A stretch of 64,000 bases of DNA from Alkalimonas sp. (GTDB taxonomy: Bacteria > Pseudomonadota > Gammaproteobacteria > Enterobacterales > Alteromonadaceae): positions 1 to 64,000 of the forward strand of contig NZ_JAFIFQ010000011.1 in NCBI RefSeq assembly GCF_020831925.1, given 5' to 3'. Both the position numbers and the translations under genes were made by a program. Under the pieces are notes generated by a model. That model ran no database searches. It was not told the origin of the DNA and was given only the letters and a program-made list of their open reading frames with translations. Of this stretch, positions 29,217 through 39,490 are shown in pieces. Numbering within the stretch: the first letter of the stretch is position 1; each line of letters begins with the position of its first letter.

Positions 29217-29319
29217 TTTCCTCTTTGGCATTTGCTGCCAATCTGTGGATAATAACCGCCATAACACGACACAAAAATGACACCATGGCAGCAACAGCGT
29301 GCTGCCGACAGGATGCGCT

Positions 29320-32300
29320 ATGTCTCAATTACTTCGTATTGTGCTGATCCACACCCACCTGCCTGGTGTGGTGGAATTGCAGCTGGACCAGCACACCAAT
29401 ATTTGTGGCACCAATGCTTCGGGCAAAACCACCCTGCAGCGGCTGGTGCCGGTGTTTTACGGCGAGCAGCCGAACCGGGTGGTGCCCAAAACACGCAAAA
29501 AGTTTGATGAATTTTACCTGCCCTACTCCAACAGCTATCTGGTGTACGAGTACCGGCGTGAAAATGATGAGATCTGCCAGGTGGTGCTGACCAAGAAAAG
29601 CGATGGCGGTGTCGAGTACCGTTTTGTCGGCGCGCCTTACCAGAGCGATTTCTACCTGCAGCAAAGTGACGAAGGGGTCAAGGCGCTGAGCTACAGCGAC
29701 TGGGCCAGCGCCATGCGGGCCCGGCCCGATGTGCAGGTGTCGGCCAAAATCAGTGCCACTAGCGAGTACCGCAGTATTATTCAGAACGATGCTGCTGCGC
29801 TGCGCGGCAACAATGCCGACAGCGTCAAGTTGCGCCGGCTGGCAGCCAGTTTCAGCCTGGTGGCCAGTGGCCATAAGCTGCGCCATATTGAAAAGCTGGT
29901 CAGCGCCGTTCATGCCAAAGAAGGCAAAATGGACACCTTAAAAGCCATGCTGGCGGCCATTTTTGAAGAAGATGGTGTGACCCTGCCGACCACCAAGGTA
30001 AAAAACACCAAGGCGCGGGACTGGATCCAGCAAATGCGCCAATCGATGCGGCTGGACCGGCTGCAGCAGGATTTCGAGCGGCTGCAGCAACTAGCACTGC
30101 AACTGGATGGTGCCGAAGCCCAGCTGGCGGCTTTGCTGCCCCTGCTCGAACAGGATGAGCAGCAATTAAAGCAACAGCGCGCCGATGCCGAGCAGCAGGT
30201 GCAGAGCCTGCGCCAGCAACTGCAAAGTGCCAAAGAGCTGTATCAGCAGCAACAGCTGGAACACAACAGCCAGCTGGCCAAAGTCGAAGCCGATCTGCAT
30301 GAAACCTCGGCCCGGCTGGATCGCCTGCAGCAGCAGTTTGATGACTTTGACAGCAAAGACATGCCGAAGCTGCAGCGCGATACCGATGCGCTGCCGCTGT
30401 GGCGTGAAACCCTGCAAGAGCTGGCCGAACAGTACCAGTTGATGGTGGAGCAGCACGGCGATATGGAGCGTCAGCTGGAGCAGCGTAAAGCCAAACTGGC
30501 CGAATCCTTTAACCGCTTAAGCGAGCAGCACAGAGCCAAAGCCAAGCAGCTGCAGCAGCAAAAAGATCAGACCCGCGAGCAGCAGGACAACAAACTGGCC
30601 ACACTGGAACAGGCCTTTCAAAGCCGCTTGCACGAGCAACAACAAACCTTCGCCACTCAGCTAAGCGACTGCCACAGTGCCATCGCCGTGCTGCAAAGCC
30701 AGCTCAGCGCCTCGCCGCTGACCGAAGCCGAGCACGACGAGCTGCGCGCCGCCGAACTGCGGCTGGAACAAGCTCAGCAGCAGGCCCAGCAGCAGGCCCG
30801 CCAGCTGCAGCAGTTGCAAAAGCAGCATCAGCAAGCGCAGCAACAACGTGAGCAGGCCGATCAGCAGCTCGAGTCCAGCCGTAAAGCCCAGCACAGCGCC
30901 GAGCAGCAGCTGCACAGCCTTGAGCGCCAGTTAAGCCCAGAGCAAGGCAGTTTGCGCCATTTCCTGCGGCTTCATTACAACGGCTGGGAGCAAAAGCTGG
31001 GCAAGGTGCTGGACGAGCGGCTGCTGGAGCGGCACGATCTTCAGCCGCATCTGCTGGATCTGACCGACAGCCTCTATGGCCTGCAGCTGGATTTAGCAGC
31101 CATCGACACGCCGGATTACGCCCAGGACGAAGCCGCCATTCGTCACCGCCTGCACAGTGCCGGGCAACAGCTGGAGCAAGCCAACACCAACAAAGCCGCC
31201 GCCGAGAAGGCATTAAAAGACAAGTACGAGCAGGCCGAACTGGCCCGGGCCCAGCTGGAGCAGGCCGAATGGCAACTGACCCAGTACGAGCAAAACATCG
31301 ACTACGCCCGCGATGCCCGCAACCGCTTAGACGCTCAGCAGCGCGAGCTGGTGAAACAACGTCAGGCCTCTGTGCGCTCGGAGCTTGGCGCCCGTCAGCA
31401 GCAACTGGAAAAACTGCAGCATCAGCAGCAACAGGACTTGAATGGCCTGAAAGACGACCATAACAGCCAGAAAATGGAACTGAAAGCCGACTGGCAGGCC
31501 GAGCTGCAAGTGTTCGACGAGCAAATGGATGAGCTGGAGCGCCAGCTGGAGCGTAAGCGCGAAGACAACAAAAGCCAGCTGCGCGAGCTGCAGCTGGCCT
31601 TTGCCGAAGAACTGTCGGCCAAAGGCATCGATCCACGCCGTCTGGCGGAGCTGCGGCAAAAGCAGGACCAGCTCAAAGCCGATATTCAGGCCGTCACCGG
31701 GCGTCAGAATGAACTAAGCGCCTGGCAAAGCTTTATGCAACTGGACTGGCAGCAACTGCGCCCGCAACTGCTGGAGCAGGAAACCACGCTGAAACAGCAA
31801 CAGCGCAGCAGCCGTCAGGCGCTGGAGCAATTAAAAGCCGATTACAGCCAGCAGCAAAAGCAGCTGGATGCACAAAAGCAGCAGCATCAGGAGCAGATGC
31901 AACACGCCGAGCAGCGGCTGGCGCAATTAAAGCCGTGTTTAAGCAAGCTGGCCGAGCTGCACCTGAGCACCGTGAAGCCAGCCAGTCTGGCGGCCTGCGC
32001 CGATGTGATCGAGCGACTGTCCCGCACCAACGAAGCCCTGGAGCAGCGCAGCAAGCTCGATAGCGCACTGAAGCAGGCGATGGAGCAGTTTGAAAGCATG
32101 CTGAGTAAAGATGCCGGTCCTGAGTTTCTCGATCGGCTGGAGCATGAAAAACGCAAACTGCCCGACTACGCCGGCAAGCGCGAGCAGTTGCCCATCCTGT
32201 CCGATTTGCTGCGCATTTTAAAAGATGCCCAGCAACAGCTGCTGGAAATGGGCGAGAACATTGGCGGCGATCTGAAAAAGTTTTTCACCGTCTTTAGCGA

Positions 32301-32985
32301 CATCAACCGCCGTATTGCCCTGCAAAGCCGCCGCTTAAGCGAAGCCGTAGCCGACGATTTGGTGCTGGAAGGCATCAGCCGCTCGGAAGTACGCATTCTA
32401 TCCACCATCGACGAGCTGGGTTTCTGGCAGCCGCTGAAGCACTTCGCCAAGCTGTACGATGACTGGGGAGCTTCCGGCAAAGCCCTGCCCTCAGAGCAGT
32501 ACTTAAACGCCCTGGCCGATGTGGTCGAGCTGCTGCGCGCCGACGAGCAATACAGCATCGAATCGCTGCTGCGGCTGGAGCTGCATTTAAGCGAAGGCGG
32601 CTCCGAGCTGGTGATTAAAAACGACCGCCAGCTGCTGGAGTCGTCCAGCCATGGCATGGCGTACCTTATTCTGTGCAAATACCTACTGGCCTTTACCCGC
32701 TTGCTACGCGGCGATGCCAAGGTCAGCATTCATTGGCCGATTGATGAAATCGGCACCCTGGCGTACCACAACGTGGAAAAACTGTTCCAGGCTTGCAGCA
32801 GCAACAACATCGTGATTGTTGGCGCCTTCCCGAACCCGGAATCCGATGTGCTGATGCTGTTCCAGCACCGCTATCTGATTGAGCCAAGCCAGCAGGATCC
32901 GAGCAAACGTCAGCTTAAACGCATTCAACCCAAAGTCAGCCGCCTTGCTGAGCGACTGGCGCAGAAACAGCAGGAGGCCAGCTGA
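29320..32985 (+). CDS. mksB: SMC-like ATPase of an MksBEFG/Wadjet-type complex
   Basis: 1221 residues from ATG 29320 (ACAGGA ribosome site); the ORF-track start 21 bases earlier has no such site. Walker A GTNASGKTT is at 30-38. Long Gln/Glu/Leu coiled coils follow, with a globular hinge near 545-615 (HYNGWEQKLGKVLDERLL). The C-terminal head has a signature-like SSHGMAYLI near 1108 and Walker B PIDEIG near 1140. This N-head, coil, hinge, coil, C-head plan is that of MukB/MksB/JetC. First gene of a four-gene operon with one-base overlaps. It probably loops or extrudes DNA with its partners. The sequence is clearly diverged from textbook MukB, so exact family assignment needs a profile search. 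Confidence 0.78.
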   Translation: MSQLLRIVLIHTHLPGVVELQLDQHTNICGTNASGKTTLQRLVPVFYGEQPNRVVPKTRKKFDEFYLPYSNSYLVYEYRRENDEICQVVLTKKSDGGVEYRFVGAPYQSDFYLQQSDEGVKALSYSDWASAMRARPDVQVSAKISATSEYRSIIQNDAAALRGNNADSVKLRRLAASFSLVASGHKLRHIEKLVSAVHAKEGKMDTLKAMLAAIFEEDGVTLPTTKVKNTKARDWIQQMRQSMRLDRLQQDFERLQQLALQLDGAEAQLAALLPLLEQDEQQLKQQRADAEQQVQSLRQQLQSAKELYQQQQLEHNSQLAKVEADLHETSARLDRLQQQFDDFDSKDMPKLQRDTDALPLWRETLQELAEQYQLMVEQHGDMERQLEQRKAKLAESFNRLSEQHRAKAKQLQQQKDQTREQQDNKLATLEQAFQSRLHEQQQTFATQLSDCHSAIAVLQSQLSASPLTEAEHDELRAAELRLEQAQQQAQQQARQLQQLQKQHQQAQQQREQADQQLESSRKAQHSAEQQLHSLERQLSPEQGSLRHFLRLHYNGWEQKLGKVLDERLLERHDLQPHLLDLTDSLYGLQLDLAAIDTPDYAQDEAAIRHRLHSAGQQLEQANTNKAAAEKALKDKYEQAELARAQLEQAEWQLTQYEQNIDYARDARNRLDAQQRELVKQRQASVRSELGARQQQLEKLQHQQQQDLNGLKDDHNSQKMELKADWQAELQVFDEQMDELERQLERKREDNKSQLRELQLAFAEELSAKGIDPRRLAELRQKQDQLKADIQAVTGRQNELSAWQSFMQLDWQQLRPQLLEQETTLKQQQRSSRQALEQLKADYSQQQKQLDAQKQQHQEQMQHAEQRLAQLKPCLSKLAELHLSTVKPASLAACADVIERLSRTNEALEQRSKLDSALKQAMEQFESMLSKDAGPEFLDRLEHEKRKLPDYAGKREQLPILSDLLRILKDAQQQLLEMGENIGGDLKKFFTVFSDINRRIALQSRRLSEAVADDLVLEGISRSEVRILSTIDELGFWQPLKHFAKLYDDWGASGKALPSEQYLNALADVVELLRADEQYSIESLLRLELHLSEGGSELVIKNDRQLLESSSHGMAYLILCKYLLAFTRLLRGDAKVSIHWPIDEIGTLAYHNVEKLFQACSSNNIVIVGAFPNPESDVLMLFQHRYLIEPSQQDPSKRQLKRIQPKVSRLAERLAQKQQEAS

Positions 32986-33605
32986 TGCTGCAACACGGCC
33001 CTTTACTGGAACGGCTGCTGGCCGGTGACTTTATCTGTCAAATCAGCGACGAAGATGCCTTTCGCCACCTCGGCAATGAGCAAACCCAGCAGGACATCAA
33101 CCACTACCTGCGGCCACTGAACCGCCGGTTGGTTAGCAACGACGATGGCTCGGTGTTTTACCTGGGTTACCATGAGCTGACCAAAGAAGCCCGCGAGCAT
33201 TTAAGCAGCCAGTTTGCGCTCACCGTGCAATCCTTGCTGCCGCTGTTGGAGTGGCTGCAACTGGTGCAGGAAACCCTGGGCCGCGACAGCGCCCTGACCG
33301 CCGGTGATACCATCAAGCTGCAGGAGTTTGTGCTGCGCACCGAAGACAACCAAAGCCTGCGCCAGCGTCTGAACGCCCTTGCCAGCGACCGCTTTTTTAA
33401 CAGCCAGAGCGAGCAGCTGGACAGCCAGGTCAAACTGATTTTCCGCCGCTTAAAAGAGCACGGCTATCTGTTGCAACCGCACAGCGAACGCCAGTACTAC
33501 ATTGTCACCGGCAAAATTGACCATCTGCTGGATGTGATCCGCTTTATCCGCGATGAAGAGCAGCTGCCGGTGGACGATACCCCCAGCCAGGAGGCGCTGC
33601 TCTGA
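32985..33605 (+). CDS. mksE: MukE/MksE-like accessory subunit (JetB position)
   Basis: 206 residues; the start overlaps the upstream stop as TGATG. Predicted largely helical, with an N-terminal block (LLERLLAGDFICQISDEDAFRHL), a winged-helix-like centre and a basic end (SQVKLIFRRLKEHGYLLQPHSERQYYIVTGKID) of the kind seen in MukE/JetB wing domains. Identification rests on size, fold impression and its place between an SMC ATPase and a kleisin-like gene. It lacks the recognisable LLKGVLYR-type start of common JetB proteins, so it belongs to a divergent branch. Confidence 0.62.
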   Translation: MLQHGPLLERLLAGDFICQISDEDAFRHLGNEQTQQDINHYLRPLNRRLVSNDDGSVFYLGYHELTKEAREHLSSQFALTVQSLLPLLEWLQLVQETLGRDSALTAGDTIKLQEFVLRTEDNQSLRQRLNALASDRFFNSQSEQLDSQVKLIFRRLKEHGYLLQPHSERQYYIVTGKIDHLLDVIRFIRDEEQLPVDDTPSQEALL

Positions 33606-34846
33606 TGGCCCCGCTCGACTCACAGCTGACGTCCAATTTATTCAGCATCGGTGCCGAGCGTCTGGCCTTGCTTGGCAAGCACCACAAAGCCCTGATGCAG
33701 GGCTATCTGGATGGTCAGGTCGATGAAACGGCCTTTAGCGAAGGGGCGCTGAAAAAACTGATCGCCGCCCGGATTTTATGGCGACCAGACGAGCAACAGC
33801 CTTTGGCACTGCGGCCTTTGGTCAGTGAACTGATTGCCAGTATGGTGGCCGATGAAAACCGCCGCCAAATCAACGCCGATGTCGCCGAAAAGCTGGAACA
33901 AATCCGCAACCGGGTGCAGGCCTACCGCGATGCGCAGTACAAAGGCGATTACAGCGTGGCCGAGCTGCAGCTGCAGCGCCTGACCGAGCATGTGCACGAC
34001 TTAAGCGGCCAGTTTGAAGAGGCCATTGACAGCCTCTGGCACCGGCTGAACAGCGACTTTGGTTTTGTCAGTAGCCTGGATGATAAAATCCGCGAAAACG
34101 AACGGGCACAAAAGCAACTACGCCGTTTGCTGGATGGCCTGGATTTGCTCGATTTCAACGAACTGATTGAGCTGTCCGAAGGCAATAACCACCTGCGTAA
34201 ACTGCTGGTTAGTCAGCTGCAAAACCAGCTGAGCTCGCACCACAGCAGCTTGCTGGAAGTGCAAAAACGGCTGGTGCAGCTGCTGGCCAAGTTCCGTCAG
34301 CAGCAGGCCCGCTCGATGCTGATTGCCAATATGGCGGCCTTTTTGCGCCAGCATCCAAAATACCAGCCGGCCGATTACCCCAACCGCTCCGAGCTACCGT
34401 CGTTGTTCAATCAGGCGGCGGCCATCCGGCCACAAGCCGCCATCGCCCTGGATAAAGCCAGCGAGCGGGCGGTACTGGCCGAACTGGTGCGTGCCCTGCC
34501 ACGGCCAGGCAGCATCGAACTGCCCGAGCAGCACAGCGCCAGCTTTGCTGAGCTACTGGCCGATGAAGAAATCACCGCCCGCCAGCAGGCGCTGAAAACC
34601 GATGTGGAAAACTTCTACCTGAGGGTGATCGATCAGGGCGGCAAACTGAGTGCGCTGGATTATTTGGCCCAACAGCAACTGAGTTGGGACAGCGAGATCT
34701 GGCTGTATCAGATCCTGGCTGAATACCAGGCGCTGCCGTTGGAGGAAAAGCAGATGTTTGCCATTCGCCGCGAAGAAGCCCCGGCCAGCTCGGTTAACCA
34801 GCTGCTGCTGATCCGCGATATTCAGCTGACCCTGCGGGCGGCATAA
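33605..34846 (+). CDS. mksF: MukF/MksF-like kleisin subunit (JetA position)
   Basis: 413 residues, starting in a TGATG overlap with mksE. The N-terminal part looks like a winged helix (ALLGKHHKALMQGYLDG... LKKLIAARILWRP). A long helical middle follows (about 110-270, with EEAIDSLWHRLNSDFGF and a basic LRRLLDGLDLLDF segment), then a C-terminal winged-helix-like part ending in a helix. This is the layout of a kleisin that bridges the two SMC heads. Assignment is from architecture and operon position rather than clear sequence signatures. Confidence 0.6.
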   Translation: MAPLDSQLTSNLFSIGAERLALLGKHHKALMQGYLDGQVDETAFSEGALKKLIAARILWRPDEQQPLALRPLVSELIASMVADENRRQINADVAEKLEQIRNRVQAYRDAQYKGDYSVAELQLQRLTEHVHDLSGQFEEAIDSLWHRLNSDFGFVSSLDDKIRENERAQKQLRRLLDGLDLLDFNELIELSEGNNHLRKLLVSQLQNQLSSHHSSLLEVQKRLVQLLAKFRQQQARSMLIANMAAFLRQHPKYQPADYPNRSELPSLFNQAAAIRPQAAIALDKASERAVLAELVRALPRPGSIELPEQHSASFAELLADEEITARQQALKTDVENFYLRVIDQGGKLSALDYLAQQQLSWDSEIWLYQILAEYQALPLEEKQMFAIRREEAPASSVNQLLLIRDIQLTLRAA

Positions 34847-35712
34847 TGCTGCCGGTATTAAGCCCGGCAGCCTGCCGCTTTTTGCGTCAACTATCGCCTA
34901 AGGTGCTTGCCGCAGGCCGGCTGAAAAAATCAACCCGGCAAAAGTCTGTGCAGGAAGTCCTTTGCTGGTGTCTGGCGCATCAGCTGGAGCAGGTGCCCGG
35001 CAACTGTCTGCAGCGGCCGGATTTTTACTTCGAGCCAGCCCTGCTACAGCAAATTGCTGCGGTGCAACAGGCATTGGGGCACCCCGATTATCGGCTGGAT
35101 TTCTCGAACCAGAGCCGGCCGGATGCGGCCTTGCAAAGCCAGATTGAGCAAAAAAGTATTGGCATCAAACCACGGCAAGCAAGGATCTTACTGCGACTGC
35201 CTCAGCCCCAAAGGCTGGCTGGTATTGCCGTACAAGAACTTGATCTGGACTGGCAGCAGCTGTCGTTGCCCGACTATGAAGCCCTGCTGGTGGTGGAAAA
35301 CCTGGATTGCTTTTATCAGCTGGAGCGCTTTGCGATCGAGCTGCCTTACCAGCACATCCTGATCGTCTATCGCGGTGACCGCCACTACAGCAGCGGCTGC
35401 AAAGCACTTAAAGCCGCCTGGTTAAGTTTGCAAAAACCAACCATCTATTTTGGCGACTTTGATGGCAAAGGTGTCAGCATCGCCTTGCACGAAGGCTATC
35501 AGGCCATGCTGTTGCCAGCTTTTGCCGAGCTGCAACAACAGGTCAGTGCAGCCATGCTGCCCGATAAACAGCTAAAATTCCTGCCCGCGACCGAACAACA
35601 CCCGACCAGCCCAGCTTTTCAACCTTACCAACAATTGCTTTGCCAGCAACTCAAGGGACTGCGGCAGCAACAGATGCAGGGGATGGCGCTAGCGCCTGTC
35701 TTGTTGAGCTAA
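34846..35712 (+). CDS. mksG: Toprim-type nuclease subunit (MksG/JetD-like)
   Basis: 288 residues, starting in a TAATG overlap with mksF. The C-terminal half is a Toprim fold: Glu151 in LLVVENLDCF and the DxD pair D204/D206 in YFGDFDGKG, the metal-binding set of topoisomerase VI-type and JetD nucleases. JetD cuts plasmid DNA in Wadjet systems. The N-terminal region is short, with basic patches (LKKSTRQKSVQEV). Its presence as last gene of the operon argues for plasmid defence over a purely structural condensin. Confidence 0.68.
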   Translation: MLPVLSPAACRFLRQLSPKVLAAGRLKKSTRQKSVQEVLCWCLAHQLEQVPGNCLQRPDFYFEPALLQQIAAVQQALGHPDYRLDFSNQSRPDAALQSQIEQKSIGIKPRQARILLRLPQPQRLAGIAVQELDLDWQQLSLPDYEALLVVENLDCFYQLERFAIELPYQHILIVYRGDRHYSSGCKALKAAWLSLQKPTIYFGDFDGKGVSIALHEGYQAMLLPAFAELQQQVSAAMLPDKQLKFLPATEQHPTSPAFQPYQQLLCQQLKGLRQQQMQGMALAPVLLS

Positions 35713-35829: not shown

Positions 35830-36792
35830 TCATTTCTGACACAGCGAAAGCCATAGCTCCCTCCAGTGAGAGTTCAGGCCTAAATCATCCAACACCAAAG
35901 CCCCATTGTTCGTTTCGGGGAAGTCCTCTAAAAGCTCCATTAGCCGTTTCCCCCAACTGGAGTTCGGACATATGACTGCCATCATTTTTTGCATGATACA
36001 AAAGTACATGAATGGCTTGGCATTATCTAAACCAAGCCATTCCTGAGGCAATGGAGAACGCTCCAGCACATTGATATTCCATAGTCGACTGTGATGGGCT
36101 GCTACATTTCGAATGAAGTTAAGACTGCGCAACCACCTCGCCAAAACATCTCCACTGGCTAAGCCATACTTATTGGCGATTTGATTTTTATCGTGGTACT
36201 TCATGCCGGCAAACAACCGGGATAGTAAGCCAAAATCCCAAACTTCGATAGCAACCCAAATCGGTAAATGCCCTTGATACTTTGCACTATGATGCTCGAT
36301 AAAAGGCTCCTTCCTGGCACGCCAAACCATGGTTTCGAATTTTTCAAGCCACAGTTGGTGATCTGTCTTTCCTTGATGGGGCCCTCTACGATTGGCTCTT
36401 TTGGCGAAGTTTCCATGCAGACACTCAGGATTTTGGTGCGCACAAGGGTCCTTTGCACCCAACAAATAGGCCACATCTACACGGATCGCCATTTCAATCC
36501 GCTCCAACGCATCAAGCGCTAATAGCCTTAGCCTCTTATCAAACACATAAAGTTGAACCACATCTTCAAAGTGACTGTCTGGCACAAAGTTATCGGAACG
36601 AACTGGACGGCGTTGCGTTGCAGTATGAGCATGGTCGATGGCACGAAGTGGATACCAGTAACCGCTGAGTCGGTAATAGCCAATTCTGGAAAGATAGTTT
36701 AATGCAGCAGCCTCGTGGTCTACTTTCAGACCGCGTTGCTGCAGAATGTTCAGTTGCTCTTCCATTGAGCGCCAAGGTTTTAATTCAGGCAT
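35830..36792 (-). CDS. Abi_2 (AbiD/AbiF-type) abortive-infection protein with HEPN motif
   Basis: 320 residues. The family start (QLNILQQRGLKVDHEAAALNYLSRIGYYRLSGYWYPLR) and middle (LYVFDKRLRLLALDALERIEMAIR) match Abi_2 proteins. The RNase-type HEPN motif RNVAAHHSRLWN (R-x4-H) lies near residue 240. Members cause abortive phage infection in lactococci and are thought to cut RNA. The GC content is low compared with the genes outside the islet. It lies 86 nt downstream of the nuclease-like gene on the same strand, so they could be one transcript. The usual toxin partner is not obvious. Confidence 0.85.
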   Translation of the reverse strand: MPELKPWRSMEEQLNILQQRGLKVDHEAAALNYLSRIGYYRLSGYWYPLRAIDHAHTATQRRPVRSDNFVPDSHFEDVVQLYVFDKRLRLLALDALERIEMAIRVDVAYLLGAKDPCAHQNPECLHGNFAKRANRRGPHQGKTDHQLWLEKFETMVWRARKEPFIEHHSAKYQGHLPIWVAIEVWDFGLLSRLFAGMKYHDKNQIANKYGLASGDVLARWLRSLNFIRNVAAHHSRLWNINVLERSPLPQEWLGLDNAKPFMYFCIMQKMMAVICPNSSWGKRLMELLEDFPETNNGALVLDDLGLNSHWRELWLSLCQK

Positions 36793-36878: not shown

Positions 36879-38753
36879 TCAAATACTTTTTGCGATTAAA
36901 TCGGCTTTCAGCAACCCGCCTTTGGTTAGTAAACGAGCGGAGAAATTTGGTTTGCGTTTACTCCGATAGGCATCATAAATTTGCTTTAGCCCATCCGCTG
37001 TGAGTAAAGAGATATTCACCTCGGTATCCATCTCAGCTGACTCAATAAAATCCTGCGAAAAACTTGGAGCAATAATCAGCACCTGTGCGACACGTTTTCC
37101 CTGATTTTCGCATCGTTTAACATAGGCCTTTATCTGCCGTGAAGTGCTGGAGTATTTTGCAAAATCACCATTCTTGCAGGTTTTGGCCTCACCAATAATA
37201 ATATCGTCATCGCTAATGGACAGGATAATATCAGCTTTATCTTTAGCCGTGTTTATCGACTTGCGAAGCTCTTCATCCACATTCAAATCCATCTGCTCCA
37301 GGATAGTTTTGGTGGCCTCCTCAAATTTCAGACCAAGATCTGCCTCGGAGACATCAATACCTGATTCTTTAAGCCCCATCAGATCACGTCGAGCTAAAGC
37401 AGCAAAATTTTCAATCAATTTATCATTTGCGCTGGCGAATACATCAAGCAGATGAAATCTTGGGTTACCCTTTTTGGGAAGATTCATCGTATCCCGCAAC
37501 TCTCTCATTTCATCGTTGCTAATTAAATAAAGCAGGTCATGTGGGGTGATGCTCAAAGCTCGTAACCGCTCGACATTGATTTCTTCAGTATCTTCAAGCT
37601 CAAACTCTCTTTTGAGACGTTGTGAAAGTGACTCTTGGCGGCCATCAGGATCTTTGCCATGGAAGCTCTCCTCCAGCGCATCGAACATTTCTTTATAGCC
37701 TGTTGCGCTCATGGCATTAAATTCACGATCAGTAGCTGTATTCAAACTATCCAGAATGACATCTATCCGCTCATCGACTGTTTGCCCTATTCGCTCAGCT
37801 TCAATATCCAGATCTGTGATCAGCTGCTTCAAGCGCTCTTTGCGTTTATTTTGACTTTCATTTTCGTCATACAGATCCCTTCCTAGCATATCCCTGACAG
37901 AAATACCGGAATGCATGATGGTTGAAATTCTCTCACTGCGGGAAACCCCACGAATTCGCTTACCATAACTTTTAAGAATGTTGGCAAGTTCAGCGTCGGA
38001 TAGCACCCGTAATATCCTTAACAAATGCTTATCCGCCAACTCTTTATGTTGAATTTGGTTAAGTATGGCAACGACTTCGTCAGGAATCAGTACTTCTGAG
38101 CGCTTCCGGTTGATGAAAATCACCCCCATCTCGCGTAAGTCCTGCAAACAATTTTCGACTGTTTCCTTCCCCGCTTTTATCGGATCAGACAGATGCTCAA
38201 TAGCTACGACTTCATCGTGAGAAATTTTCAGGTGCTGGGCGAGGACATTGAGAATACTTCGTTCATCATCAGAGATATTGGCTTGCCTGTTCGTTTTAAG
38301 ATCGTTGGAGTAGGCAATTTTAAGGCAGTCATTAAAAATCTTAAGTCGATGTTCACGACAGTAGTTATCCGCTGTACAGCTGTTTACCTCTTGCTGTATT
38401 TGCCTCGAAAGCGAGTCCAGCACCTCCCATTCCCGACTATATAATTGCTCTAGCCAACTAATTCGGGCTACGCCATTACCATCACGGCTTAGTATATTAA
38501 CCAGCAAAGCCATAGAGGCATCACAGAGTGTCAGCCGTTCTTCAATCGCAGCTTTGTAGTGACTGGAAACTGCCGCAAATAGCTGTGAGATTTCGCTACC
38601 TGATGCATCTTTGATTTGACGGTTGACCTTATTCAAGGTTTTGTCGATAACTGAATCATAAGCCGCAGCATTGCTGCACAACTTGTCCAGACAGGTAATG
38701 AACTTAGATTTTTCAATTTGATTTAGCGCAGACAGAACTTGGTTCAACTTCAT
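36879..38753 (-). CDS. Large protein with C-terminal PD-(D/E)XK-like nuclease core
   Basis: 624 residues; I do not recognise a named family. Helical N-terminal part, then a winged-helix-like stretch near 170-240. Two short SAP-like helix-extended-helix segments (SDAELANILKSYGKR; SNDEMRELRDTMNLPKKGNPRF) may bind DNA. The last 150 residues carry a restriction-nuclease-like core: KADIIL with D508, and IIIGEAKT with E522-x-K524, followed by a helix and VAQVLIIAPSF. All three catalytic positions are present, so an active nuclease is plausible. Next to Abi_2 and the MksBEFG operon it is a good candidate defence effector. That role is inference. Confidence 0.6.
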   Translation of the reverse strand: MKLNQVLSALNQIEKSKFITCLDKLCSNAAAYDSVIDKTLNKVNRQIKDASGSEISQLFAAVSSHYKAAIEERLTLCDASMALLVNILSRDGNGVARISWLEQLYSREWEVLDSLSRQIQQEVNSCTADNYCREHRLKIFNDCLKIAYSNDLKTNRQANISDDERSILNVLAQHLKISHDEVVAIEHLSDPIKAGKETVENCLQDLREMGVIFINRKRSEVLIPDEVVAILNQIQHKELADKHLLRILRVLSDAELANILKSYGKRIRGVSRSERISTIMHSGISVRDMLGRDLYDENESQNKRKERLKQLITDLDIEAERIGQTVDERIDVILDSLNTATDREFNAMSATGYKEMFDALEESFHGKDPDGRQESLSQRLKREFELEDTEEINVERLRALSITPHDLLYLISNDEMRELRDTMNLPKKGNPRFHLLDVFASANDKLIENFAALARRDLMGLKESGIDVSEADLGLKFEEATKTILEQMDLNVDEELRKSINTAKDKADIILSISDDDIIIGEAKTCKNGDFAKYSSTSRQIKAYVKRCENQGKRVAQVLIIAPSFSQDFIESAEMDTEVNISLLTADGLKQIYDAYRSKRKPNFSARLLTKGGLLKADLIAKSI

Positions 38754-38806
38754 TGGATATCCCTTTCTTATTGTTTTGATATTGCTTGCAGCAACGGCTA
38801 TCTAAC

Positions 38807-38823
38807 TGGTTATCATTTAACCA
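38807..38823. promoter_or_regulatory. Palindrome upstream of the nuclease-like gene
   Basis: TGGTTATCATTTAACCA has 6-bp arms around a 5-nt centre and lies 54 bases before the start codon, a place where an operator would sit. No regulator gene is adjacent. Confidence 0.35.
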
Positions 38824-38944
38824 AATGAGTATTCATACCCAATCTAGAACATAAGCTGCTGTTTCGCAATTTAAAACAGAATTTAGAACGTTCAGATATC
38901 ACACTGAACAGGCTTTACCATAAGCTTTGTCTGTTACGCCCCAA

Positions 38945-39490
38945 TCACTCAGGCCACACCCGCGCCAGCACAGTAACTGGCTCGGTTAGCGGCAAGGCGA
39001 TCAGCAGGCCTTCGCCGGAGGCGGGGAAAATACCGGTTAGAGCGGTGATATTGACCTGATGGCTGATCAGCACAGTGGGTGAGCTAAAGGGAGCCTGCGC
39101 CAGAAAGGCTCTTAATGCGCTGGTTTGTGCCTGGCCATCACCGCGGCCGGCAAAGAATGAATTCAGCAGTGGCAGGGGCTCAACCACTGAAAGCGCCATC
39201 AGCTGACCGGTTTCAAGGCAGCGACACCACTGACTGCTATAGATCTGCACGCTATCCTGTGTTTGCTGTTGCAGCAAACGCCCCCAAGCCTGGGCTTGCT
39301 GGCGGCCGCCTTCATTCAGATTACGCTGGGTGCTGCAGTCCTTCAGCACAAAACCTGCCGGGTCGCCGGTACCGGGGGCTAGGGCATGGCGCATCATCAA
39401 AATGGCATCGCCATCGCGCCAGGCTTGCCATGCACGCTCATCCGCCGACAGATTTAACGGGAACAGCAGTAAAAGCATCCACAGTTTCAC
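38945..39490 (-). CDS. Secreted histidine phosphatase family protein
   Basis: 181 residues with a short Sec signal peptide (MLLLLFPLNLSADE). The catalytic RHA lies in ILMMRHALAPGTGD near residue 35, with NLNEGGRQQA, the SSQWCRCLETGQ region and the second histidine in VLISHQVNITALTG. This is the branch-1 histidine phosphatase pattern. As an exported protein it is unlikely to be the cytosolic phosphohistidine phosphatase SixA; phosphate release from a small periplasmic substrate is more likely. Confidence 0.82.
   Translation of the reverse strand: MKLWMLLLLFPLNLSADERAWQAWRDGDAILMMRHALAPGTGDPAGFVLKDCSTQRNLNEGGRQQAQAWGRLLQQQTQDSVQIYSSQWCRCLETGQLMALSVVEPLPLLNSFFAGRGDGQAQTSALRAFLAQAPFSSPTVLISHQVNITALTGIFPASGEGLLIALPLTEPVTVLARVWPE

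Follow-up and report, generated by a model that had tools for sequence, protein, structure and literature searches.

A predicted orphan type IIS-like nuclease of Alkalimonas and related bacteria, encoded ahead of an exchangeable slot for defence modules

Introduction

Members of the PD-(D/E)XK superfamily carry a D...(D/E)XK triad in an alpha-beta-beta-beta-alpha-beta core. Type IIS enzymes possess a head of several helix-turn-helix subdomains, are encoded alongside a cognate methyltransferase, and cleave at a fixed distance from their site. Methyltransferases are rare near the winged-helix fusion type IV endonucleases (PD-(D/E)XK-wH) (PMC11037411). The Cap controllers CapW/BrxR, CapH+CapP and CapK+CapS, which contain a DNA-binding domain, are located upstream of diverse interchangeable immune operons (PMC13373217). 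At the P2/P4 defence hotspots, conserved anchors flank defence modules that are unrelated to one another (PMC9122126).

The gene considered here lies in a 64,000-nucleotide stretch of an Alkalimonas sp. contig, which was analysed as a whole and is referred to as the window:

36879..38753, minus strand: orphan type IIS-like nuclease gene, complete ORF of 624 codons (60 full-length homologues aligned)

At about even odds (roughly 0.5), this gene encodes a stand-alone anti-invader nuclease of type IIS-like architecture and also opens a two-layer defence operon. Nucleases of this fold and defence hotspots both have precedents; their combination did not appear in the libraries and literature searched. 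Although the libraries used assign no function to the family, purifying selection on it is very strict and defence systems lie behind it.

Results and Discussion

Protein family

Many full-length relatives of the 624-residue protein are present in gammaproteobacterial genomes, and the alignment comprises 60 full-length relatives with 48-97% identity to the window protein. PHROG 34709 ("unknown function") matches the protein end to end (E 2e-252). Profile searches of Pfam, NCBIfam and PADLOC reveal no family covering the protein, which bears out the earlier note, made from the DNA letters of the window, that had left it unmatched to any named system. A sequence search of the PDB yields no related sequence, and homology to FokI or Nt./R.BspD6I is not detectable at the sequence level. 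The nuclease family is undescribed in the literature searched, which left out most subscription journals and preprints, and the combination of a nuclease with an exchange slot for immune systems is absent from the libraries and literature searched. The GC content at 37001-39000 is 43%, compared with mostly 50-58% in the surroundings, in agreement with the low GC recorded in the note.

The predicted cleavage domain and DNA-binding head

The C-terminal part of the protein contains the putative active site:

36882..37391, minus strand: C-terminal PD-(D/E)XK cleavage domain, residues 455-624 (alignment, AlphaFold, Foldseek)
37230-37232, minus strand: D508, in the KADI motif
37188-37190, minus strand: E522, in the IIIGEAKT motif
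37182-37184, minus strand: K524, in the IIIGEAKT motif

D508, E522 and K524 are invariant in the 60 aligned relatives at identities down to 48%, which indicates that their spacing is no chance motif; E470, E478, E479, Q540 and Y544 are likewise invariant. The nuclease-like spacing of KADI and IIIGEAKT had been pointed out from the window alone, and the positions given there are correct. Residues 455-624 have a mean column identity of 84% (44 rows), with the catalytic residues invariant.

The AlphaFold model of the whole protein, built with 55 aligned relatives, has a mean pLDDT of 89, and that of the C-terminal 170 residues alone has a pLDDT of 93. Helices and strands follow one another in the modelled C-terminus as in a PD-(D/E)XK domain. 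In a Foldseek search of the PDB, the whole model retrieves FokI first (E 1.6e-4, probability 1.00); the whole-chain superposition is poor (rmsd 21), as expected of multi-domain chains, which indicates that only the cleavage domain is well matched. The domain alone retrieves the type IIS nickase Nt.BspD6I first (E 6e-4), together with the R.BspD6I small subunit and FokI (query TM 0.59), and the nuclease has no significant match in the viral fold library. The invariant D508/E522/K524, the modelled element order and the Foldseek matches assign the domain to the PD-(D/E)XK superfamily, as previously suggested for this core, and the domain search assigns it to the FokI/BspD6I-like cleavage domains.

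Three segments of the head were compared with the model and with profiles:

38049..38288, minus strand: predicted winged helix-turn-helix, residues about 156-235 (HHH-EE in the model; weak HTH profiles)
37875..38033, minus strand: helical segment, first SAP-like segment of the earlier note, residues 241-293 (helices in the model, without a SAP profile)
37410..37544, minus strand: helical segment, second SAP-like segment, residues 404-448 (helices in the model, without a SAP profile)

The modelled head contains one clear winged helix-turn-helix pattern (H162-174/H179-189/H196-209/E213-215/E220-222) and further helical bundles; over the whole chain, the superposition with FokI is poor. Many weak, sub-threshold winged-helix profiles (RPA_C, TrmB, Crp and Lrs14 HTH) fall on the same residues, ~156-235, so that the winged-helix-like stretch proposed earlier gains support. 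The two SAP-like segments did not hold: the protein has no Pfam SAP match at E<=1, SAP is absent among the 25 Pfam families shown at E<=0.1 for the 60 relatives, and the model contains short helical bundles at these positions and nothing more specific. The SAP assignment was therefore dropped.

Leader and promoter

Upstream of the start codon, a short segment is conserved together with the gene:

38754..38878, minus strand: leader of about 125 bp, spanning the -35 region through to the start codon (upstream homology limits)
38841..38869, minus strand: conserved promoter core, TTGCGA (38864-38869), 17 nt, TAGATT (38841-38846) (window sequence)

The leader reads as a sigma-70-type promoter, judging by its sequence. 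The exact 19-mer TTATGTTCTAGATTGGGTA is common to the Alkalimonas, Arsukibacterium and Rheinheimera loci, in which the segment from TTGCG(A/C) via TTATGTTCTAGATTGGGTA to the start codon travels with the gene despite differing upstream DNA. In several pairs of the Rheinheimera/Alkalimonas group, upstream homology stops at 123-125 bp. The only exact match of the promoter core in its own genome is the nuclease locus. Alignment of the leader gave no consensus pairs for an RNA structure.

Genes behind the nuclease

Directly behind the nuclease, named defence domains are encoded at about 15 loci, and the known and candidate defence systems found there are of about a dozen kinds. The cargo genes are as follows (L numbers denote loci):

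35830..36792, minus strand, window: Abi_2/AbiD gene, 86 bp past the nuclease stop codon (Pfam PF07751 E 3e-55, PADLOC AbiD E 3e-62)
L011: putAbiC
L008: nSTAND
L021: cyclase + AGS_C (Pycsar-like), last gene of a four-gene stretch
L023, L057: KAP NTPases
L027: SIR2 + HerA-like helicase; L068 likewise by annotation and homology
L043: another SIR2
L032: AAA_15 + DUF4435, as in PARIS
L069: metallophosphatase + ORC-CDC6-like ATPase
L049: PDC-S06
L061: retron RT + NDT partner
Less specific cargo: PLD, NERD, HATPase and ion-channel genes

At L006:11897-13045, L022:11888-13207 and L055:11954-12913, the gene immediately past the nuclease has no defence match in Pfam or PADLOC. These three are strong candidates for new defence systems, for which the nuclease gene serves as a practical marker. 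The PADLOC counts (201 families for 55 downstream genes and 99 for 38 upstream genes) were rejected as a statistic, because they count models and not proteins.

In the window, a Mks/Jet-like operon (29299-35712) converges on the Abi_2 gene. Members of the large Mks ATPase cluster were found in the vicinity of just 3 of the approximately 70 loci, and two of these 3 belong to Alkalimonas; this linkage is not conserved, so a Mks/Wadjet partnership was rejected, and the Mks operon beside the nuclease is incidental. The earlier argument for a defence role from Abi_2 and MksBEFG is therefore retained in part: Abi_2 and the swapped defence modules of the relatives support it, whereas MksBEFG does not, as most relatives have no Mks neighbour. 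The neighbourhood survey suggested at that time revealed diverse defence genes downstream of the relatives and no conserved linkage to the Mks condensin.

The Mks/Jet operon of the window is itself divergent: the PADLOC JetC match is weak (E 8e-4), the JetD-like protein carries DUF7281, and Pfam gives nothing meaningful for the MksF-like protein of 413 aa. Compared with A. amylolytica (L004), the JetD/MksG-like protein of the window (34846-35712) is 58% identical, its operon partners 95-97% and Abi_2 70%. Given the 58% against 95-97% for its partners, the JetD-like allele was apparently exchanged along with Abi_2 next to it.

Exchange at the nuclease stop codon

None of the neighbouring genes is conserved as a partner across about 70 loci. 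Close relatives that occupy one chromosomal site have up to 10 kb of upstream sequence in common, and their homology stops altogether at the nuclease stop codon; such groups are found in Rheinheimera (L011/L031/L032/L055 and L006/L007/L021), Pseudoalteromonas (L022/L023/L027/L069/L070) and Methylophaga (L012/L013). In 45 pairs with a CDS identity of at least 78%, the median shared sequence is 162 bp upstream versus 8 bp downstream, and a few longer downstream values may represent over-extension by the simple scoring or shared cargo. Many pairs share hundreds of upstream bases and only 0-10 bp past the stop codon.

In Pseudoalteromonas, the slot also has a right-hand anchor, a convergent helicase of ~1050 aa (L022:13217-16429, L023:13340-16492, L069:15747-18899) that is annotated as DUF3427 or DEAD/DEAH helicase in plasmid records, and the cargo at these three loci ends 3-9 bp before the helicase stop codon. 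On the left of the same slot is a 366-aa gene annotated as an HNH endonuclease.

Neighbours on the same strand account for 42/57 downstream and 34/46 upstream genes (74% on each side); because the shares are equal, orientation alone does not prove an operon, and a directional cargo bias was discarded. The first downstream gene of at least 100 aa is on the opposite strand at 15/57 loci, which indicates that the nuclease can stand alone. The upstream neighbours are mostly ordinary chromosomal genes, some being TA-like or restriction-like.

The island is precisely absent in relatives. An att site at the 3' end of the gene was rejected, as codon identity there (0.36-0.43) shows no excess over that elsewhere (0.31-0.46). 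At the island flanks of L011, no convincing integron cassettes or terminal repeats were found.

Loci without the nuclease

In nuclease-less Rheinheimera, the promoter core is kept in 5 genomes with at most one mismatch, one genome having two copies. In one nuclease-less Rheinheimera genome, leader copies at L156:6010 and 7420 are 1.4 kb apart, with a MNT-HEPN-like pair between them. Judged by eye, the genes behind the orphaned Rheinheimera leaders include a KAP-like NTPase, a PIN-like gene with a small membrane protein, and a MNT-HEPN-like pair. At these loci, homology to the nuclease loci stops -1 to +24 nt from the start codon; the relics were found via the leader pattern, which biases them toward leader retention, and not all breakpoints are independent. 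The clustering of the breakpoints is notable because larger nuclease remnants are absent from those genomes. Replacement driven by repeats was rejected, since the 24-mer at the relic junction is not dispersed (0-2 copies per genome).

In Alkalimonas sp. CSBr16 (L067:5479-5544), the nuclease is gone after 22 codons and Abi_2 is intact. The leader of this locus is 96% like that of the window and its Abi_2 is 99.7% like that of A. amylolytica, which identifies the locus as a recombinant. In another Alkalimonas genome (G448), a Fic-like gene follows the core promoter. Cargo can thus persist without the nuclease, and the relic loci that keep the leader or cargo indicate that leader, nuclease and cargo are separable units.

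These loci bear on two alternative functions. The protein may be a controller, with the winged-helix head repressing the operon at the promoter core and foreign or damaged DNA on the nuclease-like domain releasing the module. The position of the gene ahead of many unrelated immune modules follows the Cap-controller pattern (PMC13373217), and the core's conservation across genera, its uniqueness to the locus in its own genome, the modelled winged-helix head and the very strong purifying selection are all consistent with this function. We nevertheless consider it unlikely: a repressor would not need the invariant catalytic residues, the nuclease often stands alone, and cargo persists behind the same leader where the nuclease is missing.

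Alternatively, cutting by the nuclease may promote replacement of the cargo, or the spread of leader, nuclease and cargo to new sites. Swap junctions often lie 0-10 bp past the stop codon or, in the relics, no more than 24 nt from the start codon; leader and ORF form a unit with recurrent edges, and the island is absent from relatives with precision. However, ordinary recombination with selection for an intact promoter and ORF yields similar junctions, cargo also varies where the nuclease is absent, recognition of its own leader would mean self-cutting, and neither a transposase or integrase, nor a terminal repeat, nor a constraint on synonymous sites at the 3' end was found. This function appears improbable. 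Scarcely more probable is an immunity-exchange platform, in which a fixed leader and nuclease would actively drive or license the replacement of defence modules; if it existed, strains would replace entire immune systems and retain their controller and nuclease. A nuclease that controls or swaps its cargo would represent a novel kind of exchange platform or of controller for immune operons.

Distribution and selection

The nuclease is present in 10/31 Rheinheimera genomes, 22/199 genomes of the family, 3/369 of the class and 4/399 of the phylum, and it occurs at many different chromosomal sites. In the tree, genera are scattered, with Methylophaga, Marinomonas and Shewanella alongside Colwellia and Pseudoalteromonas, which indicates transfer of the gene. 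Three IMG/VR contigs (putative prophage) carry it. At L111:7980-9842, a single nuclease gene in opposite orientation lies amid Mu-like prophage structural genes, as judged by eye. No INPHARED phage genome encodes the nuclease; with only the 3 IMG/VR contigs, a phage-borne gene in the strict sense was rejected.

Six close pairs give dN/dS values of 0.02-0.04 for the nuclease, a sign of selection on the function of the protein; in three comparisons its dN/dS is the lowest or nearly the lowest among the neighbouring genes. So low a value, together with the mostly ordinary chromosomal genes upstream, would suit a nuclease that serves the host in repair or recombination and stands beside a passive insertion hotspot by chance. 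The patchy presence at many sites and in scattered genera, the IMG/VR contigs and the low GC argue against such a housekeeping role, which we regard as improbable.

Proposed function

The reading preferred here, a stand-alone anti-invader nuclease heading a two-layer operon, draws on the fold match, the invariant active site, the dN/dS, the defence context, the loci at which the nuclease stands alone, the patchiness and the swapping. In the predicted protein, a helical head with a winged helix precedes a PD-(D/E)XK cleavage domain that resembles those of FokI and BspD6I and has an invariant active site. The head may recognize a feature of incoming DNA, which the C-terminal domain would cut or nick, probably as a dimer; we infer, in accord with the earlier note, that the nuclease acts as a DNA-targeting effector. 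Its promoter may also serve the downstream defence module (Abi_2 in the window) by co-transcription, which would provide second-line protection. The downstream module is exchanged between strains and the promoter, usually with the nuclease, stays, a pattern that is observed among the loci.

Several observations weigh against the same reading. Selection as strict as a dN/dS of 0.03 is unusual in a defence gene, the full-length match to FokI superposes poorly, the same-strand bias is no stronger downstream, and no INPHARED phage encodes the nuclease. Additionally, an orphan nuclease needs a rule for self and non-self, and none is visible. As there is no cognate methyltransferase, selectivity must lie in the target feature or in tight expression, and the question raised by an orphan type IIS-like defence nuclease is how the host is spared.

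Comparison with known systems

As in FokI and Nt./R.BspD6I, the C-terminal PD-(D/E)XK domain follows a larger helical/winged-helix DNA-binding part. Unlike in type IIS restriction-modification, the nuclease has no methyltransferase partner nearby: the genes around the approximately 70 loci include no conserved family of methyltransferases, and a 199-aa methyltransferase is found a few genes away only in some Pseudoalteromonas and Idiomarinaceae loci. A classical restriction-modification system was rejected for lack of this partner.

The protein shares both domain types, and the rarity of methyltransferases nearby, with the PD-(D/E)XK-wH type IV enzymes (PMC11037411), but here the nuclease domain is C-terminal, behind a 450-residue head. 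A strong match to a Dam-type D12 methylase is present in the Alkalimonas genome of the window and in 15/19 other hosts, a weaker one in a sixteenth, and none in three. Because most hosts tested carry such a methylase, a Gm6ATC-dependent enzyme would attack its own host, which excludes a Gm6ATC-dependent type IV mode as a general rule; the type IV link drawn in the note is thus not supported.

Similarly to the Cap controllers, the nuclease gene lies upstream of diverse immune operons and its product has a predicted DNA-binding domain. It differs from them as a single 624-aa protein with a conserved nuclease active site, whose cargo also occurs without it; WYL, HTH+peptidase and kinase+STAS regulator domains were not found in the protein by Pfam/NCBIfam. 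Finally, in combining a conserved anchor with unrelated defence modules, the locus resembles the P2/P4 hotspots (PMC9122126); compared with these, the anchor here is itself an uncharacterised nuclease, and it is located at many different chromosomal sites.
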